This document shows positions 1,413 to 55,584 of a stretch of DNA of 64,000 nt, piece after piece; positions within the stretch are counted from its first letter, which is position 1, and every line of letters begins with the position of its first letter. Location of the stretch: positions 124,001-188,000 of the forward strand of contig NZ_OBDR01000003.1 in the NCBI RefSeq assembly GCF_900215215.1, read 5' to 3'. The notes under the pieces are model-generated. The model was not told where the DNA came from, ran no database searches, and saw only the letters and a program-made list of their open reading frames with translations. Both the position numbers and the translations under genes were made by a program. This stretch comes from Methanohalophilus euhalobius (GTDB lineage Archaea; Halobacteriota; Methanosarcinia; Methanosarcinales; Methanosarcinaceae).

Positions 1413-1856
1413 TCAGGAATTCTGCTTCATCAGGAAAGTTATGAAATCCGGGCTTAAACGGGTTTCCTTGACCATTTTGTCGATAATTTCTTCTTCGGCA
1501 AGCCCTTCTTTCCTGAATTCTTCAATACGGTCATACACACTTCTGGATACTTCAGAATACTCGTTTATGTCTTTCCTGTGTCCCCATACATCGCCTTCAA
1601 GTAAGTCAATACCCTGCATTTCAAGATACATTCTTGCAGAGCTGGATATCGTTCTTTTATAGGAGCTGGGGATGTGCAGGGCCTTTACGTTGGGACATTT
1701 CATCACAAGGGAAAAAATATCCGTATTGGATGGCCTGAATGCGAGGTGAATAATCTCCTCATTTTCATCCAGGGTCTCGATTTCTTCTTTAGAACTGACT
1801 ACTCTTATTTTCATTTTAGGTCCCTTCTTCTTTGATGTCAATTTTTCAAGCGGCAT
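1413..1856 (-). CDS. DUF1699 family protein
   Basis: The 147-residue product contains the DUF1699 core found in Methanosarcinales: KIRVVSSKEEI, then HLAFRPSNTDIF and ALHIPSSYKRTIS, ending in a charged helical tail. The function of the family is unknown. The core reads like a short alpha/beta domain with no catalytic signature visible. The chosen ATG has AAAGGA seven bases upstream. An internal ATG at 1814 begins exactly at the conserved MKIRVV, so the 14 lysine-rich residues ahead of it may not be translated. It is transcribed away from the MBL-fold gene to its right. Confidence 0.75.
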   Translation of the reverse strand: MPLEKLTSKKKGPKMKIRVVSSKEEIETLDENEEIIHLAFRPSNTDIFSLVMKCPNVKALHIPSSYKRTISSSARMYLEMQGIDLLEGDVWGHRKDINEYSEVSRSVYDRIEEFRKEGLAEEEIIDKMVKETRLSPDFITFLMKQNS

Positions 1857-1968
1857 AAAATCCTTTCAAAACTGACTTATAATTGTATATACATTAGTTA
1901 TTCTATATAAATTTTGTTAGGTCGAATTTAATTTAAATTAAAGGCGGTTTGTATTAATATTTCCTGAT

Positions 1969-1989
1969 GTTTCATTTTTAAAATGAAAC
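1969..1989. repeat. perfect 10-bp-arm palindrome
   Basis: GTTTCATTTT, a central T, then AAAATGAAAC. The near-zero loop makes it look more like a protein-binding site than an RNA hairpin. It lies inside the probable MITE. Confidence 0.6.
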
Positions 1990-1992
1990 TCC

Positions 1993-2013
1993 CATTTAAT
2001 CTCTGATTAAATG
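1993..2013. repeat. 9-bp inverted repeat with 3-base loop
   Basis: CATTTAATC, TCT, GATTAAATG: a perfect hairpin three bases after the palindrome at 1969-1989 and inside the same probable MITE. Confidence 0.6.
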
Positions 2014-2111
2014 TGACTGGAAAAAGTTGAATTATGGAATATAAGGGATATTTTTTTGTATTAGCTTTGATAAAATGAAATATTAATAAACTTACCGCCA
2101 TTAAATATTCA

Positions 2112-2118
2112 CAGGAGG
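2112..2118 (+). promoter_or_regulatory. strong Shine-Dalgarno pointing to a CTG start at 2126
   Basis: Consensus AGGAGGT lies eight bases before an in-frame CTG (2126) of the MBL hydrolase frame, whereas the GTG at 2150 has only a weak GGA before it. No ATG, GTG or TTG lies in frame between them. Confidence 0.5.
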
Positions 2119-2149
2119 TTATAGACTGAAATCTATAGATATAGGAAAA

Positions 2150-2797
2150 GTGCACATTGATTGGCTGGGGCATGCAGGATTCAGATTGCGTGGGGATAAT
2201 CTGGTGGTATATATTGACCCCTATAACGTGGGTGGTTATATCGACTACGAAGACCAGGCCGATGTGCTGCTTATCACTCATGAGCATTTCGATCATTGTT
2301 CCCCGCAGGATATTCAGAAGGTCAGGAAAAGCACGACTACTACCCTGATTCCGACAAGTTGCAGTCTGCAGTTTCGGGGCGATGCAAGAAGAATTGAAGC
2401 CGGGGATGTCCTCAGGGATGAACTTGCAATAAAGGGATTGAATATAGAAGTAGTTGCAGCTTACAATATAGACAAACCCTTCCATCCGGCCGGTGAAGGT
2501 GTGGGTTACGTGATTGAGCTGGAAGGTTTGCGGATATATCATGCAGGGGATACAGATTTGATCGATGAAATGGCTTCCATTGAAGCTGATATCGTCCTGC
2601 TTCCTATAGGGGGATATTATACTATGGATGAAAAGGAAGCTGCAGAAGCAGTTTCATGTATAAAGCCAGCTTATATCATACCAATGCATTATGGAAGTGT
2701 GGAGGGAACGGACGCCGACACAGATCTCTTCAAAAAACTTGTAGAAAAAAGAAGTAAAGCAAAGGTAATTATTCTTGAAAACAATAGTGATCCCTGA
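2150..2797 (+). CDS. MBL-fold metal-dependent hydrolase
   Basis: A 215-residue metallo-beta-lactamase-fold protein of the UPF0173/UlaG-like type: WLGHAGFRL at the start, the metal motif THEHFDHC near residue 44, HAGDTD near 130 and PMHYGS near 178. These supply the two-metal site used for hydrolysis of phosphoester or lactone substrates; the substrate here is unknown. The first standard start is the GTG at 2150, which has no good ribosome binding site. A strong AGGAGGT at 2112-2118 sits eight bases before an in-frame CTG at 2126, which would add eight residues. RNase P Rpp21 follows after 18 bases. Confidence 0.8.
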   Translation: MHIDWLGHAGFRLRGDNLVVYIDPYNVGGYIDYEDQADVLLITHEHFDHCSPQDIQKVRKSTTTTLIPTSCSLQFRGDARRIEAGDVLRDELAIKGLNIEVVAAYNIDKPFHPAGEGVGYVIELEGLRIYHAGDTDLIDEMASIEADIVLLPIGGYYTMDEKEAAEAVSCIKPAYIIPMHYGSVEGTDADTDLFKKLVEKRSKAKVIILENNSDP

Positions 2798-2815
2798 ATA
2801 TTTGAGGTAGTTTGT

Positions 2816-3127
2816 GTGTCTAAATCCCGAAAAAAGCAGAAAAATCTCATGAAGGATCTGGCAAAACAGAGAATTGAACACCTTTTCAAACTTGCAGAAG
2901 CATCATACAGTGTACACCCTCACAGAAGTAACAGGTATGTTACACTTGCACGCAGGATTGGTATGCGCTACAGAATCCGTTTGCCTGCCTCCCTTCGCAG
3001 AAGGGTGTGTCGTAGTTGTAATTCTTATCTTGTACCGGGTAGTAGTTCCAAAGTGCGGCTGAAAAAAGGAACAGTGTGTATAACCTGTCTGTCATGTGGC
3101 AGGAAAATGTGCATTCCTTACAAATAA
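2816..3127 (+). CDS. rnp4: ribonuclease P protein component 4 (Rpp21 family)
   Basis: A 103-residue basic protein matching archaeal Rpp21/RNP4. A helical N-terminus is followed by LARRIGMRYRIRLP near residue 43 and a zinc ribbon made by CRSC near 63 and CLSC near 91. It is one of the protein subunits that help the RNase P RNA remove the 5' leader of pre-tRNAs. The GTG start at 2816 is preceded by TGAGGT at a normal distance. The length is typical of the family. It probably shares a transcript with the MBL hydrolase 18 bases upstream. Confidence 0.9.
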   Translation: MSKSRKKQKNLMKDLAKQRIEHLFKLAEASYSVHPHRSNRYVTLARRIGMRYRIRLPASLRRRVCRSCNSYLVPGSSSKVRLKKGTVCITCLSCGRKMCIPYK

Positions 3128-3135
3128 TTCTTTTT

Positions 3136-3360
3136 TTAAAATGAGGACAGTAAGGCCTTGATAAGCAGAGCTGTAATTATGATGACAATCCCCATTGTCA
3201 GATAAATTAAGACATTACGATATACTTCCTCTTTTTCAGAACCTGGCTTAATTCCCCAGTGATTGCAACTTCCCTTTGAATCACAACCACCACAGGAAGG
3301 AGTTTCATCTTCAGGCGCAGGTCTTTGGATAACCGGGAGTTTTTTCATTTTATCTGACAT
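3136..3360 (-). CDS. small cysteine-containing tail-anchored membrane protein
   Basis: A 74-residue protein with a soluble N-terminal half and one hydrophobic helix at about residues 50-71 near the C-terminus, consistent with a tail anchor. The soluble part contains CGGCDSKGSCNHWG around residue 23, with three cysteines and a histidine that could bind a metal or Fe-S centre. No family was recognised. It converges with rnp4 (8 bases between stops) and lies downstream of tRNA-Ser on the same strand. Confidence 0.6.
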   Translation of the reverse strand: MSDKMKKLPVIQRPAPEDETPSCGGCDSKGSCNHWGIKPGSEKEEVYRNVLIYLTMGIVIIITALLIKALLSSF

Positions 3361-3926: not shown

Positions 3927-5114
3927 CTACCCCTCCCTTACGGGAGGGGCTTGAATGTCAATTAAGCATTCGTCCGGGTGGCTGACAAGCACCCCCTGAG
4001 ATTCCAGGATATACCTGTAATCCCGTGTTTTGTGTTCAATATTCATTGCACCAATCAGGTCGGCATTGTTCTCATAACCACATTTTTCACATCTAAAAGA
4101 CAACCTGTTACGATTGTTTTTTGAGATATGATTGCACCGAATACATGTTTGAGAAGTATACGATGGGTCAACATAATGTGTAATTATACCTGCTTCTCTT
4201 GCTTTGTATTCAATGAATGTTTGTAATTGGCGGAAAGCCCAACTACTGTGGTTATGTCTTCTCTTTTTGGGAGTTTTGGAAAGAGTGGAATCACGTATTC
4301 CTGTTAAATCTTCCAGACCTATTACTGATACTTTGTTTTCAATTGCGAATCTCACAATTTCTTTTGAGATTGTGTGGTTTACATCTCGCATAAGACGTTT
4401 CTCTTTACCTGCAATATGTTTCAACATACGTTTTGCAGATAAAGTTCCCTTCGATTGTAAACGCTTTCGCATTGACTTGTACTGATTGCGAAGATTCTTA
4501 ATTTCCCCACCTGCAAAAAAACTACATTTTTTGTCAGTGGTGGAAGCAACAGCAAGATAGTTCATACCAACATCTATACCCATGAAGGTAGATGCATCTG
4601 TCAATTCTTTATCAGGAACTTCTTTTTCCACACACAGATGGAAATAATAGTCTCCGTCTTTGTGTTTTACAACTTTGGATGCCTGATATTTCCATGAACC
4701 ATCAAAATACTGTTTCGCATAGTCATAATTCAAAATGGAATATGCTTTCCTTCCGTTAATAGTGGTTATTTTAACCATATTTTCACTAATAGCAAAATCC
4801 CTTTTGTAAGAAAAAGTCATCGAAGACGGCGAAAATTGTACCTTTTGCCATTTTGATTCTTTCAGTTTATACAATGTTTTGTAACACCCTGCAACTTGTC
4901 GTGGGATATTACAACTCATTTGAGATTTCAATTTTAATGTTTCACGAAGATATGCGTAAACTTCCTGCTGTAATTTCATCGCTGAAATCGGTTTTCCATT
5001 GTCAAAAACGATTTCAGAAACATAATTCATTCCATCTGAATATTTCTGCATAGTTTCCACCAAATCATTATCAGGATTTGCTATTTTCAAGATAATTGTT
5101 TTAGTGAGAAACAT
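3927..5114 (-). CDS. tnpB: TnpB (IS200/IS605, IS1341-type), RNA-guided nuclease of a transposon
   Basis: A 395-residue TnpB with the RuvC-like triad apparently intact: Asp in MGIDVGMNYLAVAS near residue 178, Glu in VIGLEDLTGIR near 267, and Asp in NNADLIGAMNI near 353. A zinc ribbon CIRC...CEKC precedes the last motif. Characterised TnpB proteins are guided by an RNA from the transposon right end and cut DNA next to a short motif. No TnpA transposase lies nearby, so the element is TnpB-only. A hairpin overlaps the last codons (3930-3949). Length and motifs suggest a functional protein; activity is inferred. Confidence 0.88.
   Translation of the reverse strand: MFLTKTIILKIANPDNDLVETMQKYSDGMNYVSEIVFDNGKPISAMKLQQEVYAYLRETLKLKSQMSCNIPRQVAGCYKTLYKLKESKWQKVQFSPSSMTFSYKRDFAISENMVKITTINGRKAYSILNYDYAKQYFDGSWKYQASKVVKHKDGDYYFHLCVEKEVPDKELTDASTFMGIDVGMNYLAVASTTDKKCSFFAGGEIKNLRNQYKSMRKRLQSKGTLSAKRMLKHIAGKEKRLMRDVNHTISKEIVRFAIENKVSVIGLEDLTGIRDSTLSKTPKKRRHNHSSWAFRQLQTFIEYKAREAGIITHYVDPSYTSQTCIRCNHISKNNRNRLSFRCEKCGYENNADLIGAMNIEHKTRDYRYILESQGVLVSHPDECLIDIQAPPVREG
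3930..3949 (-). ncRNA. right-end hairpin, candidate 3' part of a TnpB guide RNA
   Basis: CCCCTCCC, loop GTAA, GGGAGGGG on the minus strand: a perfect 8-bp stem inside the last codons of tnpB. In IS200/605 elements the right-end imperfect palindrome forms the scaffold of the guide RNA, and the guide is the flanking host DNA just beyond the transposon end, which would be about 3905-3925 here. The exact element boundary is not determined. Confidence 0.5.
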
Positions 5115-54937: not shown

Positions 54938-55342
54938 AAAAGGCTCTGTAGAAAAACTCATTTGAATAATTACTGAAACAGAGATTGCCCGACCTATATT
55001 ATGGAATAAGAACTTGAACTTAACTTCTTTGACCTGATTTCTGTATTTCCTTGTCCTCAATTCTTCTCTATACTTCCTTTCCAAAACAGAAAACATCGTC
55101 TCTGCCAGGTTTCTATAATGGTATATATTTTCATCAAATTCATCTCTCATCTTTCGACGATATACCATTAATTCAACAAGTTTAACTAACTCAACAAGGT
55201 TAACAACATCTCTATAGTTCTTACCTGTGTACTCTTTGATCAATACCAGTGTCATTAACTGATGTTGAGTATATTTTCGTTTGGGATACTTACAACTGTG
55301 GATTGGAAGATGAGATATACAGCTACAGACAAGCTGTATCAA
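54896..55342 (-). pseudogene. IS5-like transposase with in-frame internal deletion
   Basis: 148 codons join an N-terminal part (CKYPKRKYTQHQLMTLVLIKEYTGKNYRDVVNLVE) to a C-terminal part (YHYRNLAETMFSVLERKYREELRTRKYRNQVKEVKFKFLFHNIGRAI). The two catalytic aspartates are lost, though the region of the last Glu remains. The junction holds a tandem short repeat (VELVKLVELM), mirrored in the DNA. The last codons run into cbiQ. It cannot catalyse transposition. Confidence 0.75.
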
Positions 55343-55523
55343 TAAAGTTTAATTAATCGCTTGACATGCCATCAAATCACAGATTTAATGGGAATTCCAG
55401 ATTTCCAATCTGGAACAAAATACATTCATCACCTTTGTGTTTTTATGGCTAAAATCACATTGGGAATTGTTCTTATAAAAGTAATTATTAGTGGAAATTA
55501 GAAGAAAGGGTTTCTACAGAGAT
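54942..55523. mobile_element. internally deleted IS5-like insertion sequence
   Basis: Ends CTCTGTAGAAA at 54944 and, inverted, at 55511-55521. About 580 bp, with one ORF lacking the catalytic core. It starts five bases after the cbiQ stop, between the convergent cbiOQ and cbiMN pairs. Confidence 0.7.
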
Positions 55524-55584
55524 GCAAAAAATTAAAAGAAGGTATAAATACTCCACACCAAACGCAACGCTTAAAGGCAGAGGA

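Follow-up and report, generated by a model that had tools for sequence, protein, structure and literature searches.

We find that positions 1968-2016 of the window, the 64,000-nucleotide stretch of Methanohalophilus euhalobius DNA analysed here, probably hold one member of a Methanosarcinaceae family of palindromic repeats that are mobile but non-autonomous and would be moved in trans, a reading to which we give a probability of about 0.8 from sequence comparisons. The unit is built of a T, a first hairpin, TCC, a second hairpin and a final YGA or GNA, and the window holds two copies of it (Table 1). Evidence for mobility came from old as well as recent alleles, and the boundaries of the copy at 1968-2016 were transferred from filled and empty pairs at other loci.

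Table 1. Coordinates in the window of the two repeat copies, the parts of the first copy and its surroundings
Feature	Position	Strand	Basis
Double-hairpin repeat (putative mobile unit), 49 bp, TGTTTCATTTTTAAAATGAAACTCCCATTTAATCTCTGATTAAATGTGA	1968..2016	+	covariance model R1 match 1966-2019, 71 bits
Hairpin 1 (GTTTCATTTT/AAAATGAAAC)	1969..1989	+	palindrome; compensatory changes across family
Linker TCC, nearly invariant in family	1990..1992	+	
Hairpin 2 (CATTTAATC tct GATTAAATG)	1993..2013	+	palindrome; compensatory changes
3' tail TGA (family: mostly CGA or TGA)	2014..2016	+	
Second window copy, 51 bp, inside IS remnant upstream of transposase frame	55367..55417	-	R1 match 55364-55419, 60.4 bits
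Left arm TTTCC of host hairpin, brackets insertion point	1960..1964	+	joined flanks fold
Right arm GGAAA of host hairpin	2019..2023	+	joined flanks fold
MBL-fold hydrolase gene (Lactamase_B_3), downstream of repeat	2150..2797	+	

Filled and empty alleles could be compared six times in or beside transposase genes, and each pair differed by about 50-51 bp. One comparison concerned an IS5-type gene with flanks that are 93% identical (L108 versus L115); the others were L107 versus L108:2573-2830, L086 versus L115, L089 versus L097, L096 versus L095 and, at a leader site, L098 versus L096. No duplicated target was present in any of the six pairs, and boundaries set just before TGTT on the left and just after YGA or GNA on the right were compatible with all of them. 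An empty allele was also predicted: removing 51 bp from L152 joins CCACC to GTTTGAAAACGGTGG in a perfect hairpin, and this was written down beforehand as the empty left end of an IS605-type element. The predicted end, TTCATCCACCGTTTGAAAACGGTGGTCTTCTT, was then matched base for base by eight copies in seven genomes, two of them in the same genome as the window, and end hairpins of this form numbered 25 in 13 genomes, while a reversed control pattern gave 0. A variant empty end predicted from L187, GTTTAAAAACGG, was present in three copies in G071; a strict empty-site pattern for IS605 ends of the CCCCTA..TAGGGG type returned no match. Across seven kinds of comparison, the filled allele minus the repeat gave the empty sequence and left no duplicated target, and such allele pairs provide base-exact boundaries and ready assay substrates for the mover of palindromes of this sort.

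The repeat is defined by its shape rather more than by its letters. Its length ranges from 46 to 57 bp and is usually 51 bp (exactly so in 68 of 92 distinct copies as trimmed by the covariance model), with a 49-bp form in the window and a 47-bp form in Methanosarcina; the ends, TGTT at the start and YGA or GNA at the finish, are not inverted with respect to each other. Among 68 unique 51-mers, 96.9% of stem cells were paired, compared with a mean of 87.6% and a maximum of 89.1% in 1000 column shuffles, and the pair 5/21 was CG in 41, TA in 20 and GC in 5. The covariation test on the first set of copies gave 0 of 500 shuffles; these covariation counts are inflated by kinship of the copies, but the changes nonetheless fall in different contexts. 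At the level of aligned letters, the family has two hairpins that are maintained by compensatory substitutions while the letters change.

Of 112 Methanosarcinaceae genomes searched with the covariance model, 67 carried the repeat, with a maximum of 49 copies per genome and 17 in the genome that contains the window. When the exact core pattern was scanned across the genomes of 84,980 species, it occurred only in Methanosarcinaceae and in MAG UBA207 (labelled Methanomicrobiaceae); it was not found in viral contigs, and a phylum-wide draw of genomes gave few matches outside Methanosarcinaceae, all of them weak. Sampled copies (139) fell into 24 groups, even with merging on similarity of either flank. 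In MAG UBA207 there are 13 near-identical copies, which occupy seven or more contexts; most lie in intergenic DNA with ordinary genes on both sides, and one lies at the 3' terminus of a frame that looks like a transporter. At loci L223, L232, L237, L239, L244 and L251 of this MAG, the repeat looks as if a bigger palindromic MITE of the MAG enclosed it: arms resembling GTTCCRAACGTATTTTT flank it on one side, approximately complementary ones on the other. We found no description of the repeat in Methanosarcinaceae in open-licence literature, and no REP-like family has been reported for methanogenic archaea in the open-licence literature searched.

At the MBL site, the argument for an insertion rests on length: relatives that lack the module have flanks too diverged for any orthologous empty allele to be aligned. 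We measured the spacer from a conserved TCTATATAAA of the divergent promoter to the MBL match: it is 246-251 nt long in those five insert-bearing species where it could be counted, and in eight genomes that lack the insert (two of the same genus, G002 and G007, then G010 and another five) it spans 183-205 nt. Subtracting 49 bp from the filled spacer gives 197-202 nt, which is inside the unfilled range, and these lengths argue that about 49 bp were inserted here rather than 157 or 169. The joined flanks fold as TTTCC-TGACT-GGAAA (z -2.2). An IS605 end was considered as the source of this copy and rejected: the match is confined to the inner 49-51 bp, and the outer end hairpin is not matched. 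The insertion before the MBL gene predates the split of six Methanohalophilus species; about 97 nt separate it from the Shine-Dalgarno sequence downstream, and it is most probably old and neutral. In G006 (L072, G006:C12:111000-117000, about 1660-3280), a tnpB-only IS605-type element with a TnpB of 419 aa has landed in the MBL copy, and the orthologous copy there has lost about 26 bp of the repeat.

Two further observations concern the genes around this site. Starting the MBL gene at GTG 2150 probably makes it too short, and the frame may begin further upstream, at CTG 2126; the apparent start 6 nt past GGAGGT is CTG in the window (2126), G003 and G005 and TTG in G001, G004 and G006, and G002 and G007 have ATG at the corresponding position. 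The window also contains a further tnpB gene (3927-5114, minus strand, 395 aa), which is unlinked to the repeat at 1968-2016.

The original prediction had drawn the mobile unit much wider, as a MITE of 157 bp (1943-2099) that ends in GGCGGT terminal repeats, is flanked by an ATTAAA target duplication and is mobilised by an unseen transposase. The letters it described are present: GGCGGT at 1943-1948 and ACCGCC at 2094-2099, a perfect inverted pair of 12 nt (1952-1963 and 2077-2088), ATTAAA immediately beyond each end and, further in, palindromes at 1969-1989 and 1993-2013. Within the window, inverted ends like these stand out (1 of 6380 positions tested at equal spacing and score), the 157 nt fold much better than shuffled sequence (z -5.7), and an inner TTG(T)ATTAA.ATTTC pairing is partly retained in the orthologues of five sister species. 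This reading is nonetheless very improbable, and we rejected it on copy number, orthologues and spacer length. A 169-bp query gave one full-length match in its own genome, the window locus itself, and no second locus with the full 157-bp unit was found in that genome or in the genus. The remaining own-genome matches were weak and lay mainly in the inner palindromes; once aligned, weak extra matches had two adjacent hairpins and a CTCCC linker in common, with stem letters varying between copies. Orthologous sequence upstream of the MBL gene was recovered from five further species of the genus at about 92-93% identity (split in two pieces in G006), and in none of the five is the GGCGGT/ACCGCC pairing kept (for example, GGCGGT stands with TTGTTG, or GGCGAT with TTGCTG). 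The left flank reads ATTCAA in all five, so that ATTAAA occurs there in the window alone. Removal of 157 bp would moreover leave a spacer of about 85 nt, as against 183-205 nt in unfilled genomes, and the inner 49 bp are demonstrably a separate unit.

What is retained from that prediction is that a non-coding mobile repeat of small size precedes the MBL gene, with the inner 49 bp as its unit. Of the marks of a MITE, terminal inverted repeats common to dispersed copies are absent (the 157-bp unit is single-copy and the 51-bp ends are not inverted), and target site duplication is seen neither in the filled and empty pairs nor, given that ATTAAA is not kept in orthologues, at the MBL site. The element had been said to end 12 bases before the Shine-Dalgarno sequence; the last base of the true insert is 2016, and about 97 nt lie between it and GGAGGT (2114-2119). 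The insert is indeed not related to the IS remnants in the window by their terminal repeats, but a separate parent transposase for a GGCGGT element is needless. An apparent MITE can, in short, be a tiny insert framed by coincidental inverted letters.

Outside the MBL site, the hosts of the repeat are largely transposons. Host frames were DUF772+DDE_Tnp_1, DDE_Tnp_1, DDE_5, OrfB_IS605 and Y1_Tnp, copies stand in both orientations relative to the host transposase genes, and many lie inside the left-end hairpin of IS605-type elements, next to tnpA or tnpB. Because most contexts are other mobile elements, hitch-hiking explains much of the copy number. In L145 and in L188 (a DDE_5 gene) the frame is kept after insertion, with 17 codons added; in L107, L108, L109 and L149 the insertion introduces an in-frame stop codon. 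IS605 ends and the MBL site clearly show insertion within a host hairpin, but several coding-sequence sites do not, and a hairpin target fails as a general rule. In one IS, a leader copy and a gene copy have recombined (L110, L134, L157, L120 and others), and the recombinant loci combine the left flank of the leader copy with the right flank of the gene copy; recombination between two inserted copies in one IS therefore yields internally deleted IS copies and shows a route to such derivatives. Positions 54945-55525 of the window are an internally deleted IS remnant with terminal inverted repeats like CTCTGTAGAAA...TTTCTACAGAG that holds the second double-hairpin copy, and an apparent tail of another copy lies in its transposase frame (ATTAATGGTATATCGTCG, minus strand).

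These contexts raise the question of whether the repeat is simply an inherited part of certain IS, an end or leader structure spread only by IS transposition and recombination. Most copies do lie in IS (at IS605 left ends, in 5' leaders and in DDE transposase coding regions), and copies within one IS are seen to have recombined with each other. We consider this explanation quite unlikely, however, since the repeat, in either orientation and at varied positions, occupies several unrelated transposon families, these sites also occur in an empty state, ordinary genes flank near-identical copies in one MAG, and no IS remnant surrounds the MBL copy. Less likely again is a structured RNA or protein-binding cis-element that is kept for its function (control of transposase translation, mRNA stability, or masking of the Shine-Dalgarno sequence by a CUCC linker) and is mobile only secondarily. 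Copies within coding sequences and antisense to them, and the lack of the repeat in many relatives, argue against such a role, and no Rfam family scored above its gathering score at the repeat copies; the strong compensatory conservation and the frequent position in leaders or right after tnpA would fit it, as might the linker, which resembles an anti-Shine-Dalgarno core.

An intron-like insert, with interrupted transposases kept active by removal of the 51 nt from their mRNA or DNA, is almost certainly wrong. The idea draws on IS copies in one genome (G024: L149-L151 and others) that multiplied despite an in-frame TAA in the insert, and on a length of 51, a multiple of 3, that leaves some insertions open (L145, L188), but IS mobilisation in trans accounts for those copies, the repeat stands in both orientations in the same kind of gene, and no intron signature was found.

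We return to the favoured reading, a repeat that is itself mobile. Because structure is conserved over sequence, and terminal inverted repeats and duplications are lacking, we infer that the repeat may be recognised as a folded single strand, and it would then be pasted by an enzyme acting in trans and persist mostly as a parasite of other transposons. A Y1 (IS200/IS605-type) transposase acting in trans would be the leading candidate mover because many copies occupy the left-end hairpin beside tnpA or tnpB, although we hold the Y1 route only tentatively. Y1 genes were detected in 67 of the 112 genomes, and some adjoin copies at IS605 ends (G043, G056). Both repeat and Y1 were present in 49 genomes, the repeat only in 18, Y1 only in 18 and neither in 27. 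Simple dependence on Y1 was rejected, as 18 of the 67 carrier genomes (e.g., G007, G024 and G029) had no Y1 gene at the threshold used; the association is suggestive and confounded by phylogeny.

Comparison with known systems gave likenesses on several sides. Non-autonomous derivatives of IS200/IS605 elements likewise have hairpins near both ends, make no target duplication and often adjoin tnpA or tnpB; unlike them, the archaeal repeat has almost no non-stem sequence for guide motifs and lives in 18 genomes without a detected Y1 gene. It also differs in having no constant 5' tetranucleotide: many different ones precede the insertions. Small dispersed repeats of cyanobacteria, which have a different host, are likewise very small and lie in transposons and intergenic DNA. 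REPs, REP dimers and REPINs (GTAG and CGTC superfamilies) are very short dispersed palindromes with two hairpins per unit, compensatory stem changes and no coding capacity (PMC3116915, PMC3733652), features that the archaeal repeat shares, including the short dispersed palindromes with compensatory changes that mark the group. Some REP dimers in bacteria lie within host palindromes and some within genes (PMC3733652). The archaeal repeat differs in that none of 126 copies has the GTAG tag, its two hairpins are unlike rather than inverted copies of one REP, its host is an archaeon, it resides largely in transposons, and no RAYT-like partner was identified. Lacking both a constant tetranucleotide and GTAG, the repeat conforms, as tested, to neither the mark of REP/RAYT nor the target rule of IS200/IS605. 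Rickettsia palindromic elements are palindromic repeats of about 150 bp inside metabolic host genes (PMC10969869, PMC3733652). The archaeal repeat resembles them in lying inside genes, sometimes in frame, and differs in its length of about 50 bp, its clade and its host genes, which are transposases, and in the stop that some insertions carry. By the way it works, the archaeal repeat is best grouped with REP dimers and Rickettsia palindromic elements, without the defining REP mark that was tested.

A further-reaching reading would make the repeat a hyperparasitic archaeal mobile DNA, a 51-bp two-hairpin unit that is recognised by shape and pasted precisely into transposons without duplication, often into a host hairpin and sometimes in frame, by a mechanism unlike the known REP/RAYT and IS200/IS605 rules; taken as a whole, this is rather doubtful. 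A unit of this size would rank among the smallest mobile units described.

Two variants of the repeat occur in larger arrangements. At L201 and other Methanosarcina loci, the 47-bp form sits between two more conserved hairpins, GTCCTCTTGAGCG..AAAAGGAC and CCCGAAGCGAAACTCGGG, and together they make a composite intergenic repeat with tens of copies per genome. In G119, which belongs to a related family, the repeat takes a 57-bp form, longer in its second hairpin (L190, L197, L203, L209 and L215; 17 copies in the genome), and is bracketed by TTCTC...GAGAA.
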